A stretch of 33,926 bases of DNA from a virus, in IMG/VR virus record IMGVR_UViG_3300021598_000592, positions 1 to 33,926 of that record; one strand, written 5' to 3'. The translations under genes were made by a program, and so were the position numbers. Each line of letters begins with the position of its first letter. The stretch's first letter is position 1. A model generated the notes under the pieces. The model searched no databases. It worked only from the letters and a program-made list of their open reading frames with translations, and had not been told where the DNA came from. This document shows, piece after piece, positions 829 to 32,824 of this stretch.

Positions 829-1058
829 GATATAAGGTTTTGAAATTCATCGAATGTCATTAATGTTATGATAGTTGAACCGCCTATGTAAATCTCTGTA
901 TATTCAATCTCGTTATTCCAAACAGGATGTGCCCCATGAAAATTTAAAAGCAAAAAAGGCACAACATCCAATTCCCTCCAATCAAATTCAATGTCAAGGT
1001 CTTTGTTTCTTCTCGTTTCCTCTGTATGGTAAAGTATATTTATTAAGTACCCATTCAT
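825..1058 (-). CDS. Hypothetical protein
   Basis: A 77-residue acidic protein of unknown family. Visible features are an acidic/aromatic stretch (DLDIEFDWRELDVVPF) and a C-terminal half rich in Ile and Thr that could be a small beta structure. No metal motif, signal peptide or membrane segment is seen. It overlaps the sigma-like gene upstream by 4 bp (1055-1058) and the next gene by 4 bp, so the reading frame is supported by position rather than by homology. Confidence 0.65.
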   Translation of the reverse strand: MNGYLINILYHTEETRRNKDLDIEFDWRELDVVPFLLLNFHGAHPVWNNEIEYTEIYIGGSTIITLMTFDEFQNLIS

Positions 1059-1531
1059 TGTCTGATCTTTTTCTTCAATTCTTTTTTAGTTTGATTCAGA
1101 GTCCGAATGATACTCATATACGGAATGCCTGTCTGTCGGCTTAGTTCCCTCGCATTTTTATTAAAATCAAATGTGTAAAGCTTGAATATTTCCTTTTGAT
1201 ACCAATACAGATTTTCTAAATGATCAATGACCTCAATTTGTTCGTGTATTTCATCAGCCTTTTCAACCGGTGTCAGTTCCTCAAAGTTCCTGTAGTTTTT
1301 ATAAAACTTGTTTTTAGTTGACTGAACAAGATTGAGCATGATTCGTACAATGTAAAATTTAAGCTGTTTTTTATTGTATAGTTCAATCAACTTTTGATCT
1401 TCAATCTCTGCTATTATCAGGAATAGTTCACTCCGCAAATCATCCTGCATTTCAACAGGCTTCATTCTTTTAAGCACTTCGTTTAAGTCCTGAGAATGCC
1501 ACAGTTCGGTTAATATTCCGCTTTTGTCCAT
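1055..1531 (-). CDS. Sigma-70-like / sigma-related regulatory protein
   Basis: A 158-residue protein organised like a minimal sigma factor. Residues about 30-80 (DDLRSELFLIIAEI, then KKQLKFYIVRIMLNLVQ) match the helix pattern of region 2 in ECF-type sigma factors. An acidic linker follows (EELTPVEKADEIHEQIEV), and residues about 125-157 form a helix-turn-helix resembling region 4 (ARELSRQTGIPYMSIIRTL) with a lysine-rich end. It probably binds host RNA polymerase or DNA to drive phage transcription, which is inference. It lies in the replication/early operon between the nuclease (22 bp overlap) and small genes. It could instead be a sigma-fold transcription regulator lacking true promoter recognition. 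Confidence 0.6.
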   Translation of the reverse strand: MDKSGILTELWHSQDLNEVLKRMKPVEMQDDLRSELFLIIAEIEDQKLIELYNKKQLKFYIVRIMLNLVQSTKNKFYKNYRNFEELTPVEKADEIHEQIEVIDHLENLYWYQKEIFKLYTFDFNKNARELSRQTGIPYMSIIRTLNQTKKELKKKIRQ

Positions 1532-1869
1532 TTGTTCAAAATTGGATTTTTACCTTGCTGTGTGCAAATAAAAGCTATTCCTCCACAATCAATAACATCG
1601 TTCAGCCTTTCAATCTGTTCTTTGCTTAACCTGTCCCCTATTTTTTTGACCTCAATCGCAACATATAAACCTAACTGATTATATCCCTGAAGATCTGCCC
1701 ATCCTTTCTCTATTGTTCCTTTTCGCCTCCTGACCGGTATATTGTTTACCCTGTTTAGCCTCATACCAAGTCTTTCCCCTTCTAACTTCGCCCATTTTGT
1801 CAGGTCGGAAGCAGTCAGTTCTTTGGATGATTCCACAATGTGGGCAGTCTGTTTTTCCCCTTTTGCCAT
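1510..1869 (-). CDS. VRR-NUC domain nuclease (Holliday-junction-resolvase-like)
   Basis: A 119-residue protein whose second half matches the VRR-NUC fold of the PD-(D/E)XK superfamily. Asp59 lies in KGWADLQG, Glu73 and Lys75 in VAIEVKKIGDRLSKEQ, and Gln85 follows, in the order D...ExK...Q. Family members cut branched or flapped DNA, so this one likely acts in phage replication or recombination, consistent with the annealing protein and replication genes upstream. The ATG at 1869 lies 50 bp after the preceding stop, and its first 190 bp overlap another open frame that starts with a zinc ribbon. It overlaps the sigma-like gene by 22 bp. Confidence 0.8.
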   Translation of the reverse strand: MAKGEKQTAHIVESSKELTASDLTKWAKLEGERLGMRLNRVNNIPVRRRKGTIEKGWADLQGYNQLGLYVAIEVKKIGDRLSKEQIERLNDVIDCGGIAFICTQQGKNPILNKWTKAEY

Positions 1870-1915
1870 TATGAATTGTGACAGTATAAATTTTTTGACA
1901 ACTTGAACACCTCAT
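1679..1915 (-). CDS. Zinc-ribbon small protein overlapping the nuclease gene
   Basis: A 78-residue frame beginning MRCSSCQKIY, with a second pair CPHCG near residue 25, i.e. two CxxC knuckles typical of a small zinc ribbon. Its ATG is 4 nt after the stop of the 223-residue gene, the spacing expected for the next gene of this tightly packed operon. Its last 63 codons run in another frame over the start of the VRR-NUC gene and look like random basic sequence. So either the genes truly overlap, or the zinc ribbon is the real N-terminal part of the nuclease joined by a frameshift or a sequencing error, or this frame is spurious. Confidence 0.45.
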   Translation of the reverse strand: MRCSSCQKIYTVTIHNGKRGKTDCPHCGIIQRTDCFRPDKMGEVRRGKTWYEAKQGKQYTGQEAKRNNRERMGRSSGI

Positions 1916-1919
1916 AAAA

Positions 1920-2591
1920 TTAAATTAATTTATTGAAATATTCTGCAACTGCCATTCTTCGACAAGCCAATTCCATGTGTTCATCATCTTCTAAAAGCCT
2001 ATTCATTTCCTTTCTTTCTTTATGTGATGCGTATTGATACTGCCTTCTGATCGCCTCCTCTGTTCTTTTCAACGTTCCTTCAACATCTGTTATGTGACCT
2101 CTTTTGTGGATAATTTTAAAACACTTGAGTCCCATAAAAATATGATTCCAATCTTTATTTCTTTTGTAAATGTCTAAACTCATTTTTAAAACCTCATCAT
2201 CATCCATTTGTGGGGCAGCCAATTCTTTCTGTGGCTCAATTTTTTCTTCTATTCTGTATTTATATGCCCAACGTGCATAACTGCTCATTAATCTCGAAAG
2301 ATATAAAGCTGAAAAGTTCTGATAGGTTTCAGGATTTTCATCCAACTTGTCTTTGATCATTAAGTCAAAAGCCAATTCAAATTCGCCAATAGGTAAATTT
2401 GCGTAATCTACCTTGACCATTTTTGCCATGTAATTCATTTCAAATTCGCTCGGCAACCTATCTCCTTTCACTCCCAATAAAATCATAGCTTTTGTAAGTA
2501 TATCAAAAATTTCTTGGGTTGAGGAGTCCATAAGTTTTGGAGTCTTCTTCGCTGCTAATAGAATTTTTGAGTCGTTCATACCATTGCTCAT
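1920..2591 (-). CDS. Hypothetical replication-module protein
   Basis: A 223-residue, helix-rich charged protein that I cannot place in a family. It ends with a long basic/acidic helical stretch (residues about 165-215). It follows the winged-helix replication protein, and such pairs often consist of an initiator and a helicase-loader-like partner, but no Walker motif is visible, so that role is only a guess from context. The A-rich leader before the ATG at 2591 favours that start. Using it, the gene overlaps the upstream gene by 89 bp; internal Met codons at 2579 and 2531 would shorten the overlap. Confidence 0.7.
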   Translation of the reverse strand: MSNGMNDSKILLAAKKTPKLMDSSTQEIFDILTKAMILLGVKGDRLPSEFEMNYMAKMVKVDYANLPIGEFELAFDLMIKDKLDENPETYQNFSALYLSRLMSSYARWAYKYRIEEKIEPQKELAAPQMDDDEVLKMSLDIYKRNKDWNHIFMGLKCFKIIHKRGHITDVEGTLKRTEEAIRRQYQYASHKERKEMNRLLEDDEHMELACRRMAVAEYFNKLI

Positions 2592-3240
2592 ATTGTTCTT
2601 TTTTAGTTTTAGGTGATTTAAAGTTATTGTTAAAGTTAGAATTATTTATCCAAACAGCTAACATTTTTTGTTTCCAATTTTTTACAGGTTTCCCTTTGGA
2701 ATCTTTCCAATCAGCCACATCATAATACTCGAATGCCTTTTTAGCTGCTTCTATTGTACTGCCTTTTTCTAAAAAATAATCTTCAACCTCAGAAATTGAT
2801 GGCTTTTGTACACACTTAGTATTTTGTATTAAATTAGTCTTTTGTAATACATTAGTATTTAGTATATGAGCACTTTCACCGAACTCGGTAATTTCCGAAG
2901 TCGGGTTTTCCGATTCTCGGTTTTTCTCTATCTCGGCAGGTATATCATAAACAACATGGTTCCAACCTACAAACCTTCCTGTCTTTTGATCATGAACCTT
3001 TACAGATAAAATATATCCTTTTTTTTGCAGGTTTTTAAATGACTTGTCAATTGATCCTTTTTTATCAGGTAAACTATTGTATAAATTTTGCTTATATATT
3101 ACCCAATCTGAAGGCAATGATAAAAGGTAACTTAATAAACCTTTATCTTCAAGTGACAAATCTTTTGACTTAATCACTTCGTTTGATAGAGTGGTAAACC
3201 TTTCGGTTGTTCTGCTTTTTACTATTTGTCCTGTATTCAT
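2503..3240 (-). CDS. Winged-helix replication protein (DnaD/replisome-organiser-like)
   Basis: The chosen start (ATG at 3240) gives 245 residues beginning MNTGQIVKSR. An upstream in-frame ATG at 3285 lies inside a terminator-like hairpin and is less likely. The N-terminal domain (FTTLSNEVIKSKDLSLEDKG, then LLSYLLSLPSDW, KGSIDKSFKNLQKKGYI) is a helix-turn-helix followed by a wing, the pattern of phage replication initiators and replisome organisers. A low-complexity Ser/Thr/Asn linker follows. The C-terminal part (VEDYFLEKGSTIEAAKKAFEYY, then DWKDSKGKPVKNWKQKM) resembles the DnaD/DnaB-like C-terminal module that contacts DNA and helicase. It probably marks the origin or recruits the host helicase. 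The exact partner is inference. Confidence 0.7.
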   Translation of the reverse strand: MNTGQIVKSRTTERFTTLSNEVIKSKDLSLEDKGLLSYLLSLPSDWVIYKQNLYNSLPDKKGSIDKSFKNLQKKGYILSVKVHDQKTGRFVGWNHVVYDIPAEIEKNRESENPTSEITEFGESAHILNTNVLQKTNLIQNTKCVQKPSISEVEDYFLEKGSTIEAAKKAFEYYDVADWKDSKGKPVKNWKQKMLAVWINNSNFNNNFKSPKTKKEQYEQWYERLKNSISSEEDSKTYGLLNPRNF

Positions 3241-3250
3241 AAATAAAAAA

Positions 3251-3289
3251 CCCAACGGGATTGGAAGTGGCTTTTCCGCACCCATTGGG
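3251..3289 (-). terminator. Terminator- or attenuator-like hairpin
   Basis: On the minus strand a 9-bp stem (CCCAATGGG at 3289-3281 with CCCGTTGGG at 3259-3251, one G-U wobble) encloses a 21-nt loop that holds a second 4-bp stem (GGAA/TTCC). A run of six T follows at 3250-3245, ending five bases before the ATG of the replication protein. The form is that of an intrinsic terminator, but its place in the leader of a gene points to attenuation or control of ribosome access. Seen in sequence; function not tested. Confidence 0.5.
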
Positions 3290-3348: not shown

Positions 3349-3774
3349 TTAAATTAATTGCAACTTTGAATCTATTAATATTTTTGCCTGACTGAATTTT
3401 TCAGCAAACAATTCATCAACATCAACTAAATTTTTGCAGGTCTTAATACTATGCAGGACAGTTGTATGATGTGCTCCTGTACTAACGTGCTCTCCAATAT
3501 CCTTTAAAGTTAAGTCTGTATATTGCCTTAAAAAGTAAACTGCACAATGCCTTGCATCCTTTACTCTTTGCCTTCTGGATGCTTCCTGACAATTAGTATT
3601 AAACACCTCATTAACAATTGATATAATTTCATCTGCAGGTCTACGTTTATGCCTTGCAACTCTTTCAACTACAGGGAAATTGTCCAATAATTTTTCAAGT
3701 TTGCTAATCATTTCATAATGATCTTTGATGAGAGTTTGTATAGATAATCTCGTAATATTTTGTTCTTGTTTCAA
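3349..3774 (-). CDS. Orphan DnaA domain IV (DNA-binding) protein
   Basis: A 141-residue protein containing the DnaA C-terminal DNA-binding domain without the AAA+ ATPase domain. Residues about 48-112 read IISIVNEVF, then SRRQRVKDARHCAVYFLRQY, LTLKDIGEHV and GAHHTTVLHS; the last block is the DnaA signature, with the recognition helix ending in HHTTV. The N-terminal 45 residues are helical and basic. In DnaA this domain binds TTATCCACA-type boxes. A free copy could mark the phage origin, compete with host DnaA or act as a regulator. Iteron-like repeats beginning TTATC lie about 1.9 kb away at 5668-5700. It overlaps the SSB-like gene by 4 bp. Confidence 0.85.
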   Translation of the reverse strand: MKQEQNITRLSIQTLIKDHYEMISKLEKLLDNFPVVERVARHKRRPADEIISIVNEVFNTNCQEASRRQRVKDARHCAVYFLRQYTDLTLKDIGEHVSTGAHHTTVLHSIKTCKNLVDVDELFAEKFSQAKILIDSKLQLI

Positions 3775-4001: not shown

Positions 4002-4167
4002 TTGTTATTTGATTTAAAAATTTAGCTTCCTTTGTTGGGTTCATATCCCAATTGTCTAATGTAGTCATCAATTCCTGAAATCTATCCTCTGAATACCAGA
4101 TATGATGATAGATTTTAGCAACAATGACCATCCTTTCCTGTGGGGGGAGTTTTTGATAAGAGTTCAT
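3967..4167 (-). CDS. Hypothetical small protein
   Basis: The start at 4167 (MNSYQKLPPQ) is chosen because its ATG overlaps the upstream stop as ATGA; a longer frame from 4245 would run far into the upstream gene. The 66-residue product is helical, with aromatic and His residues (KIYHHIWYSEDRFQ) and an acidic end. No domain is recognised. It is a co-translated member of the replication operon. Confidence 0.65.
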   Translation of the reverse strand: MNSYQKLPPQERMVIVAKIYHHIWYSEDRFQELMTTLDNWDMNPTKEAKFLNQITNGTELTETELR

Positions 4168-4529
4168 AATATTTGCATTTTTGCTTTTTCGTAAGAGATT
4201 AAAGTTCTGATGGCATCTATCTGGTGAACAGATGCTGAGTTGCATCTTTCAAATCCTGTTTTTACCCTATTCCAATCCTTTGCCTTAGCCTTTATCATCA
4301 TGTTAAAGGTTGATGCTGAGTATTTATCCAATAGCTCAAGATTGACTTTACATTCGATATCAACCACCTCATCAATTTTGTATTGGCATTCAGTCAGGTA
4401 CTGCCCTGATCTTGTCATTAAAATTGTCAGGTTGTTTAATCTCTCAATAAGTTCCTCTATTTCTTTTGGCATAGGCTGCTCAAGATATTTGATCATCCTT
4501 TGGTAGTGCTCATTGTACTTCTCTAACAT
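4164..4529 (-). CDS. Hypothetical helical protein
   Basis: A 121-residue, charged, mostly helical protein with probable coiled-coil segments at residues about 20-60 and 95-120 (EIEELIERLNNL; CQYKIDEVVDIECKVNLELL). It is placed immediately after the annealing-protein gene, which it overlaps by 20 bp. In phages this slot often carries a recombination accessory protein or nuclease, but I see no catalytic motif and no known family. Confidence 0.65.
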   Translation of the reverse strand: MLEKYNEHYQRMIKYLEQPMPKEIEELIERLNNLTILMTRSGQYLTECQYKIDEVVDIECKVNLELLDKYSASTFNMMIKAKAKDWNRVKTGFERCNSASVHQIDAIRTLISYEKAKMQIL

Positions 4530-29182: not shown

Positions 29183-30253
29183 TTATGCCATTGTTTTTAA
29201 TTCAAATGATGCTGTTATTCTATCATGACTACCTGTGCTTGTTAAAACACCAGTTTGTGGAGTTTTTCTTCCAATTCTTGTACATGACCATTTATTATCT
29301 TTTTTCAATCCATATATTAAACTTGGAGAAGAAGTAAGTATATTAAATCTATATTTATTTTTTTTATAATATTCGCCTATCATATTCAAAAATTTTAAAC
29401 CAAATCCAGCACCTTGATAATCAGGCAATACAACTAATCTATGCACTTTCTTCATATTCGTAACTTTTGGATGTGGTAAATGTAAAACAGACAGGAAACC
29501 TGCTATATTATCGTTTATTGTAGCAATATAAACATTTGCAGCATTGTTATGTGTATGACTCAAATAATGATGCTTTGCAAACATTTTCCATATTGTTTTA
29601 TCGTTTGTACTGAATATCTCGAATTTGATGTCTGGTCTATTTTTTTTTTGCCCTTCGCATTTACGAAAGGTCATTGTATCTGTGTCAAATACCCAATCAG
29701 GTAACAACCAATCTTCAACATCGAAATGACAAGTTACAGCTATAAACTTTTTGTTAGTTTTTCTGATTGCCTTTTGCATTGCAAATGATCCTATTTGTGC
29801 AACATTTCTATCAACAACACTTGTAAATTCATCAAATACAAATAACTCTTTATCAGATAATATTGCATTTGCTAAATCAACTCTCATCTTTTGCCCATTA
29901 CTCAAAACTGAATAAGGTTTTAACCAACTTGGTGGGCTGCTAAATCCTACAGAATTGAATGCTGATGTTATTTGCTCGACTGAACAACTTTCAGGCATAT
30001 CATCCAATACTGTTTCTTTGTTATATTCAAAATTTGTTATATATGATTCTGGGAATAATTGTTTTGCAATTGTTGTTTTACCTGTCCCACTTTTACCTAC
30101 TATTAATCCAATTTGCCAATTATCATCAATGTCAATACTTCCTTTGAATTGTTCAATTATATGTTCACTCTGTAAATCGAATTTACCGATTACAGATGCA
30201 ACCCTAAATGTTTTTTTAGGCTTTGTTTCTTTTATAATGTCAAAAGTCGGCAT
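29183..30253 (-). CDS. ABC-ATPase/GNAT acetyltransferase fusion protein
   Basis: A 356-residue fusion. N-terminal ABC ATPase: Walker A GKSGTGKT (53-60), signature LSNGQK (117-122), Walker B LFVFDEFTS (137-145) and switch His176 in TCHF, all intact, but no membrane segments, so it is not a transporter. C-terminal GNAT domain (about 207-356): HHYLSHTHNN, IAGFLSVLHLP and the acyl-CoA-binding motif RLVVLPDYQGAGFGLKFLN (272-290). The GNAT part has a layout like Mom-type DNA-modifying enzymes (phage Mu Mom is a GNAT-fold adenine modifier); that link is inference. It follows the ParB-like gene (22 bp overlap) and precedes the terminase. Confidence 0.9.
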   Translation of the reverse strand: MPTFDIIKETKPKKTFRVASVIGKFDLQSEHIIEQFKGSIDIDDNWQIGLIVGKSGTGKTTIAKQLFPESYITNFEYNKETVLDDMPESCSVEQITSAFNSVGFSSPPSWLKPYSVLSNGQKMRVDLANAILSDKELFVFDEFTSVVDRNVAQIGSFAMQKAIRKTNKKFIAVTCHFDVEDWLLPDWVFDTDTMTFRKCEGQKKNRPDIKFEIFSTNDKTIWKMFAKHHYLSHTHNNAANVYIATINDNIAGFLSVLHLPHPKVTNMKKVHRLVVLPDYQGAGFGLKFLNMIGEYYKKNKYRFNILTSSPSLIYGLKKDNKWSCTRIGRKTPQTGVLTSTGSHDRITASFELKTMA

Positions 30254-32092: not shown

Positions 32093-32824
32093 TTATTTGT
32101 CGGTTTTAGAATGAAATTTATGACAGGTATTGCATTGATATTGAATCTTTTTAACCCCCGATGCTGTTGTTCTTCTCATACTTACAACAATTTCATCTGA
32201 TCCACATTCAGGACAACTTCCCCTATCTTGCCCAAACAAAACCCCATAATGACTCTTTGGCTCAATGTGATTGTTCAGGTGTTTGAATACTTTTTCAAGT
32301 AACACAACATCCATTTTACAATACTTAATCATTTTCTCCATTGCCTGTTTATCGTTCTCTAAAAGTATTGACTTCCACAAATCGAACTCAGTCTTTATCT
32401 TTTGCCCGATACCTAAATACTTAGCAATGTAGTTAAGCCTGTTTGAATTGAACCTGAACTTGGACCTTGCAACCTTTAATGTATCGATAGTTGTATATTT
32501 TGGGAACATATCAATACCATGATACAGGCATCTTGTTCTGATCCATGCCAAATCAAACTTATCGCCATTATGCCCTACCAATTCAGTTGCCTGATTAGTT
32601 ACCTCAATGAACTGCTGAAGCATTTTCTTGTCGCATTGTTTTTTGTCCCAATGCAAAGAATAAACTTCCTTTTCTTCCTCCCACTTGTAACAAATACAAA
32701 TGATCGCTCTTTCTTTTATGATGTTAGAGTAATCAATGTTTTGTTTATAACCTGCTGACCAAAACAATCCGATGTTTGGACTTGTTTCGATATCAAAAAA
32801 TAATCGCCTACGTTTTGTCGGCAT
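32093..32824 (-). CDS. DnaQ-like 3'-5' exonuclease with C-terminal zinc ribbon
   Basis: A 243-residue protein. The RNase H-like exonuclease motifs are FFDIETSP (Asp11, Glu13), VGHNGDKFDLAWI (Asp91) and YCKMDVVLL (Asp172), the Exo I-II-III order of DnaQ/YprB-type nucleases. A zinc ribbon at the end has CPEC (204-207) and CNTC (231-234). It may proofread, trim recombination intermediates or degrade host DNA. No DNA polymerase is visible in the window, so it would act separately or with a host polymerase. It overlaps the endolysin gene by 17 bp. Confidence 0.85.
   Translation of the reverse strand: MPTKRRRLFFDIETSPNIGLFWSAGYKQNIDYSNIIKERAIICICYKWEEEKEVYSLHWDKKQCDKKMLQQFIEVTNQATELVGHNGDKFDLAWIRTRCLYHGIDMFPKYTTIDTLKVARSKFRFNSNRLNYIAKYLGIGQKIKTEFDLWKSILLENDKQAMEKMIKYCKMDVVLLEKVFKHLNNHIEPKSHYGVLFGQDRGSCPECGSDEIVVSMRRTTASGVKKIQYQCNTCHKFHSKTDK

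Follow-up and report, generated by a model that had tools for sequence, protein, structure and literature searches.

Gene arrangement at the locus

The window, defined as the whole 33,926-nt stretch of viral DNA that was analysed, carries a zinc-ribbon gene (1679..1915, minus strand) whose open reading frame (ORF) encodes 78 residues from its ATG and includes two CxxC knuckles. This agrees with the preliminary description, as does the position of the ATG, 4 nt past the stop of the upstream ORF (1920..2591, minus strand; 223 residues), which matched phrog_26016 (unknown function) weakly. The nuclease gene was also found in a different frame, as described, with its ORF at 1510..1869 (minus strand; 119 residues) and at +1 relative to the ribbon. 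According to the ORF coordinates, the two genes overlap out of frame over 191 nt (1679..1869, minus strand), and the proposed start codon of the nuclease (1867..1869, minus strand) falls within codon 16 of the ribbon, in the interval that separates its knuckles. The downstream neighbour (1055..1531, minus strand; 158 residues) overlaps the end of the nuclease gene by 22 nt.

The knuckles comprise residues 3–6 and 24–27 of the translated ORF, with a CxxC-x17-CxxC spacing. Alignments, the codon test and the predicted model delimited a ribbon core, M1–C27, with C3, C6, C24 and C27 (1835..1915, minus strand), whereas the tail lying out of frame over the nuclease (1679..1834, minus strand) was delimited by the codon test, the stop test and the confidence of the model. 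The latter reached a pLDDT of ~80 over residues 1–30 and was below 50 for most of residues 41–78. The best Pfam match of the core was Zn_ribbon_8 (PF09723; 22 bits, E 1.6e-4), which shares the four-cysteine ribbon with it, as do other short zinc ribbons; however, the score is under the 34.4-bit cut-off and the flanks are unlike. For several ribbons, phrog_15404 (unknown function) was the top PHROG match, at a weak E of 0.00036 to 0.011. A fold search with the ribbon model was uninformative.

The nuclease matched Pfam VRR_NUC (PF08774) with an E of 4e-6 and 27.3 bits, above the 23.8 cut-off. Its model had a mean pLDDT of 82, with residues 1–14 mostly below 50, and its predicted PD-(D/E)XK-type fold matched RecU (1zp7, E 3.5e-5) and Hjc (2wcw, E 2.3e-4), and more weakly VRR_NUC (4qbn, E 0.018). 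Having passed the family cut-off and showing a fold like those of RecU and Hjc, with no notable difference from VRR-NUC, Hjc and RecU resolvases, the protein resembles a small Holliday-junction-resolvase-type VRR-NUC enzyme, with the corresponding activity predicted from sequence and model.

A sequence search of the PDB returned weak ribbons only for the ribbon, and no match at 0.01 for the nuclease. Among named phages, the nuclease had no match and the ribbon search gave 10 records, all merely at E 2–8. In cellular genomes, no relative of the nuclease was confirmed among 40 candidates, and the ribbon pattern gave six matches, none in the ribbon/nuclease arrangement. Among the literature records listed, no title or abstract dealt with the ribbon/nuclease overlap.

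Conservation of the overlap

A nuclease scan of viral contigs yielded 73 loci, in 26 of which a ribbon frame with both knuckles overlaps the nuclease start (L001–L015, L017–L019, L021, L022, L058, L059 and L062–L065; L058 was counted although its ribbon is only partial owing to the contig end). In the overlap-bearing contigs, the nuclease is 58–96% identical to that of the window. Locus L016 has the ribbon frame with two of the four cysteines lost (C6 and C27) beside an intact nuclease, and the remaining 46 loci have no such ribbon frame. Two loci (L026 and L038) showed an unlike CxxC frame ending near the nuclease start, which the ribbon profile did not match. This profile matched the window ORF with an E of 5e-16, although that ORF was among its building sequences, and it missed L012, in which the spacing between the cysteines is shorter by two. 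On the nuclease tree, which was built from 60 distinct sequences with few columns, the ribbon occurs in five places and its presence needs six changes; the ribbon-free L020 and L030 adjoin the ribbon-bearing L021 and clade B. These scattered places imply repeated gain or loss of the ribbon.

By comparison of these sequences, the overlap is real and conserved and not a sequencing error, since 26 of the 73 loci carry it. The suggestion in the preliminary description that an error had split one gene, which could draw only on the abutment of the two frames, is refuted by the identical out-of-frame relation in those contigs, and we give it practically no credence. The same homologues rule out a ribbon frame that arose merely by chance from the sequence of the nuclease, which we consider just as improbable: this is true of the ribbon tail, but the ribbon itself lies upstream of the nuclease core and is constrained, and such a frame is absent from 46 of the 73 relatives. 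That description had also named as evidence against its reading homologous nucleases without any ribbon and a frame that is not conserved; most relatives do indeed have no ribbon, but five lineages keep it.

Selection on the two frames

The codon test was applied to clades A and C, clade B having too few changes. In clade A (11 sequences), synonymous/nonsynonymous changes in the ribbon frame numbered 121/178 before the nuclease start, 76/111 from there to the last cysteine and 46/717 after it, compared with 62/253, 18/179 and 570/146 in the nuclease frame over the same three stretches. Clade C (four sequences) agreed, with the ribbon frame passing from 40/28 to 7/82 and the nuclease frame from 3/52 to 64/18. 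Thus, by this test, selection swaps frame near the last ribbon cysteine and, together with the alignments, it identifies the ribbon core as the stretch under protein constraint in the ribbon frame. The tail is unconserved in sequence, yet kept open. The first residues of the nuclease and the ribbon tail are both free, so at the protein level the overlap can hardly be called dual-coding. The dual coding proposed in the preliminary description therefore holds in the sense of two overlapping genes but not in that of a shared constraint, as the codon test shows simultaneous protein-level constraint on the two frames over hardly any stretch.

For the stop test, the first 134 nt of the nuclease gene were recoded synonymously with the codon usage of each locus. 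Ribbon-bearing sequences had 0.82 stops in the ribbon frame versus 4.97 expected (22 distinct sequences, whose rows are mutually related and represent about five lineages), and in 19 of the 22 fewer than 5% of recodings were equally long open. Ribbon-free rows, L016 included, had 4.20 stops versus 5.23 expected (41 rows, likewise mutually related); nine of these also fell below 5%, and L016 is still open. Observed and expected stops in the third frame were 4.00 and 3.90 for ribbon-bearing, and 3.56 and 4.28 for ribbon-free sequences. Clade B was weak in this test (L013, 0.14; L014, 0.03; L015, 0.05; L017, 0.06). We read the paucity of stops as selection for an open ribbon frame, which would serve either ribosome passage or a tail of some length. 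Selection of the tail for charge or hydrophobicity was rejected, as its values mostly lay within ~1.5 s.d. of those of stop-free recodings (14 sequences).

A second family of genes following the ribbon

A search with a degenerate DNA pattern of the ribbon gave hits in 115 viral stretches, and 116 matches were analysed. The next gene encodes the VRR nuclease in 33 of these and, in 67, a protein of ~88 residues without similarity to the nuclease, here termed the NKDLP protein, which had no match in Pfam or in named phages. All 100 next genes are at +1, a figure that represents far fewer events, since many members are near relatives. Of the other 16 matches, six have the next gene at +1, three at +2 and two at 0, and the remaining five are at an edge or lack a called gene. 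The six at +1 comprise L101, L152 and L162, with ribbon-helix-helix-like next proteins (that of L101 scored 26.9 bits against NikA-like, cut-off 27), and L086, L088 and L157, in which the next gene lies 88 nt after the ribbon. Of the two at frame 0, L183 is a true in-frame join and L140 a contig-end artefact. Profile comparison linked VRR-type and NKDLP-type ribbons with 98.4% probability and an E of 7.8e-15, a value to be read against the many positions fixed by the pattern itself and against the E of 7.5e-8 and 4.7e-7 reached by two unrelated ribbons retrieved with the same DNA pattern.

In L101, L152, L162, L107, L183, L086 and L124, differing small genes were observed to separate the ribbon gene from that of the NKDLP protein. 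The 3' edge of the ribbon resembles a recombination boundary.

The ribbon frame is stop-poor over NKDLP genes too, with 1.09 stops versus 2.76 expected where the ribbon overlaps (57 genes) and 0.67 versus 2.63 where it lies apart (nine genes, which may descend recently from overlapping ones). As the frame is equally stop-poor with the ribbon apart, these counts do not single out overlap as the cause in this family.

NKDLP-type ribbon genes contain a very stable hairpin within their coding sequence, with a GGGGCAAAG/CTTTGCCCC-type stem that ends ~27 nt ahead of the following ATG. No more than four of 200 recodings were equally stable in 62 of 63 distinct sequences (mean z −4.13), the exception being L184 with 16 of 200; the mean z was about −2 when codon usage was taken from the ribbons themselves. 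In an alignment of 30 sequences, 93.9% of cells pair, and covariation was 0.136 compared with 0.102 in shuffled alignments (0 of 500 as high). Only two pairs are changed on both sides, however, which 76 of 500 shuffles equalled, and by eye further such pairs occur in L184, which is outside the alignment. The stem is also present in L086, L088, L120 and L124, which have no closely overlapping gene. In VRR-type ribbons, the window's kind, three recoding runs gave no hairpin signal (mean z −0.59 over 23 rows), with a single row of the 23 having at most four of 200 recodings equally stable. Rfam gave no match at gathering scores in the window, L076, L184 or L097. Within the stem of NKDLP-type ribbons (L075–L189, e.g. 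L086:5891–6016), the rare codons GGC and CCC were seen to be nearly fixed.

Start codons and expression of the nuclease

All ribbon clades have a start codon in the frame of the nuclease, at a position that shifts between clades. Relative to the core motif of the nuclease, ATG lies at −78 in clade B, −66 in clade A, −57 in L008–L010, −21 in L021 and L022, and −15 in clade C; GTG is found at −21 in L058, L059, L064 and L065 of clade C, and L012 has either GTG at −36 or TTG at −30. In L008–L010, ATGGCA stands at a site 9 nt further downstream than usual. Among the 46 ribbon-free relatives, 44 carry an ATG no more than 24 nt ahead of the core motif; TTG takes this position in L041, and L071 is truncated by the contig end. 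Of 20 distinct VRR-type ribbon sequences, all nine that have Gly17 encode it with GGC, a codon that accounts for 8% of glycine codons in VRR-type ribbon loci and is what an ATG-GCA start context would require.

Two overlapping genes fit these data better than a frameshift fusion, since none of the ribbon clades lacks a start in the frame of the nuclease and the position of this start moves. On sequence grounds, the locus probably comprises two separate genes, with the nuclease initiated on its own in the +1 frame. The ribbon protein would be translated from 1915 as a 27-residue ribbon followed by an unconserved, probably disordered tail, and its ribosomes would cross the region where the nuclease starts while reading in the other frame. 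Nuclease synthesis would begin independently at the internal ATG (1869) at +1, and the ribosomes translating the ribbon may couple or tune it. The ribbon itself may bind nucleic acid. Translational coupling of the overlapping genes is likely, and independent initiation with some coupling is the most likely arrangement.

Classical +1 frameshift sites use a stop or a slow codon. A programmed +1 frameshift producing a ribbon–nuclease fusion, one of the readings offered in the preliminary description, would account for the +1 relation in all 33 VRR and all 67 NKDLP matches, and for a change of selection at one place, as a sharp hand-over is expected of a fusion too; moreover, L183 has its ribbon joined in frame to the next gene. 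We nevertheless disfavour it as very improbable: by eye, no common shift site was seen at the hand-over, the ribbon frame is free of stops for 80–152 nt (14 sequences), with none near the hand-over of the kind used at classical sites, every clade has start codons, and each partner also occurs alone. In addition, the nuclease of L016 is intact beside a broken ribbon, and 44 of the 46 ribbon-free relatives have an ATG at the nuclease core.

Comparison with com–mom and possible roles of the ribbon

In phage Mu, com spans 469–657 of L196 and mom is annotated from 578, at +1 and with an 80-nt overlap, which would be shorter if mom starts with GUG, as stated in PMC6483171; the same paper describes the binding of Com to an RNA hairpin located upstream of where mom starts. 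Com is a zinc-finger activator of translation whose gene overlaps that of its target. Seven Com loci have Mom, Dam, a methyltransferase or an unknown protein as partner; five of these partners are at +1 and two at +2, with overlaps of 31–86 nt (JD024 and Baskent_P5 being near-copies). The layout at the window is thus of a known kind. Like the window ribbon, Com (PF10122) is small, with an N-terminal CxxC..CxxC, a free tail and an overlapping next gene out of frame, and partner genes vary in both families. In contrast, the window overlap is longer (191 nt, at +1), its partner is a resolvase-type nuclease instead of a DNA-modification gene, and a Com-like RNA hairpin at the overlap is absent from the window's kind, though present in the NKDLP branch. 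Membership of the ribbon in the Com family was rejected: PF10122 was not among the matches listed for the ribbons (the best 25 of 28 in one list), whereas Com itself gave an E of 2.7e-9, and profile comparison of the ribbon with Com gave 5.6–22.8% probability versus 92.6–94.5% for unrelated control ribbons.

By analogy with com–mom, the ribbon protein could bind the mRNA that encodes it, at a site close to the overlap, and control the translation of any gene that follows, which would add to the two-gene reading and not replace it. This is a tentative proposal. It is consistent with the shared layout (a four-cysteine ribbon, a free tail and an out-of-frame next gene), with the ribbon family having more than one partner, and with the hairpin conserved ~27 nt before the next start in the NKDLP branch. 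Against it, the window's kind lacks a hairpin signal, the NKDLP hairpin also occurs where there is no close overlap (L086, L088, L120 and L124), the ribbon is not Com by sequence, most relatives of the nuclease are ribbon-free, and L016 keeps its nuclease beside a broken ribbon. In the window, a Com-like role is possible by likeness of architecture. Equally speculatively, the ribbons might form a family of portable translational switches built on a zinc ribbon, the second after Com but different from it in sequence, which would control the following +1 gene. With the same reserve, such switches might have no stop near the ribbon and the resolvase, the NKDLP protein and ribbon-helix-helix proteins as targets, and one branch could conceivably act via an RNA hairpin inside the ribbon coding sequence. 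If the ribbon does control the next gene, phages reached the com–mom layout with more than one ribbon family.

Alternatively, the ribbon may be an accessory of DNA metabolism, for example a resolvase partner or DNA binder, with the overlap reflecting genome compaction only. We consider this possible, though on balance unlikely. The ribbon lies among replication-type genes, the PHROG matches of 2503–3285 and 3349–3774 being to replication proteins, and overlaps are frequent elsewhere in the window; however, the ribbon also precedes unrelated genes, and its frame is stop-poor to a far greater extent than needed.

Prodigal allows an overlap of ~60 nt. Genes of the ribbon type are thus easily missed, because their overlap exceeds what common gene callers allow; the com frame has no annotated CDS in four of the seven Com loci examined. 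The Com-homologue frame without annotation was noted in UMP151 (L200), Mcat3 (L201), JD024 (L202) and Baskent_P5 (L197).

Elsewhere in the window, long same-strand ORF overlaps were also observed at 2503–2591 (89 nt) and 4164–4245 (82 nt), provided that translation begins at the first ATG of each ORF. The ORF at 32093–32824 is exonuclease-like by eye and has a CxxC..CxxC ribbon at its end, and a single ORF at 29183–30253 appears by eye to combine an ATPase domain (GKSGTGKTT) with an acetyltransferase-like part.
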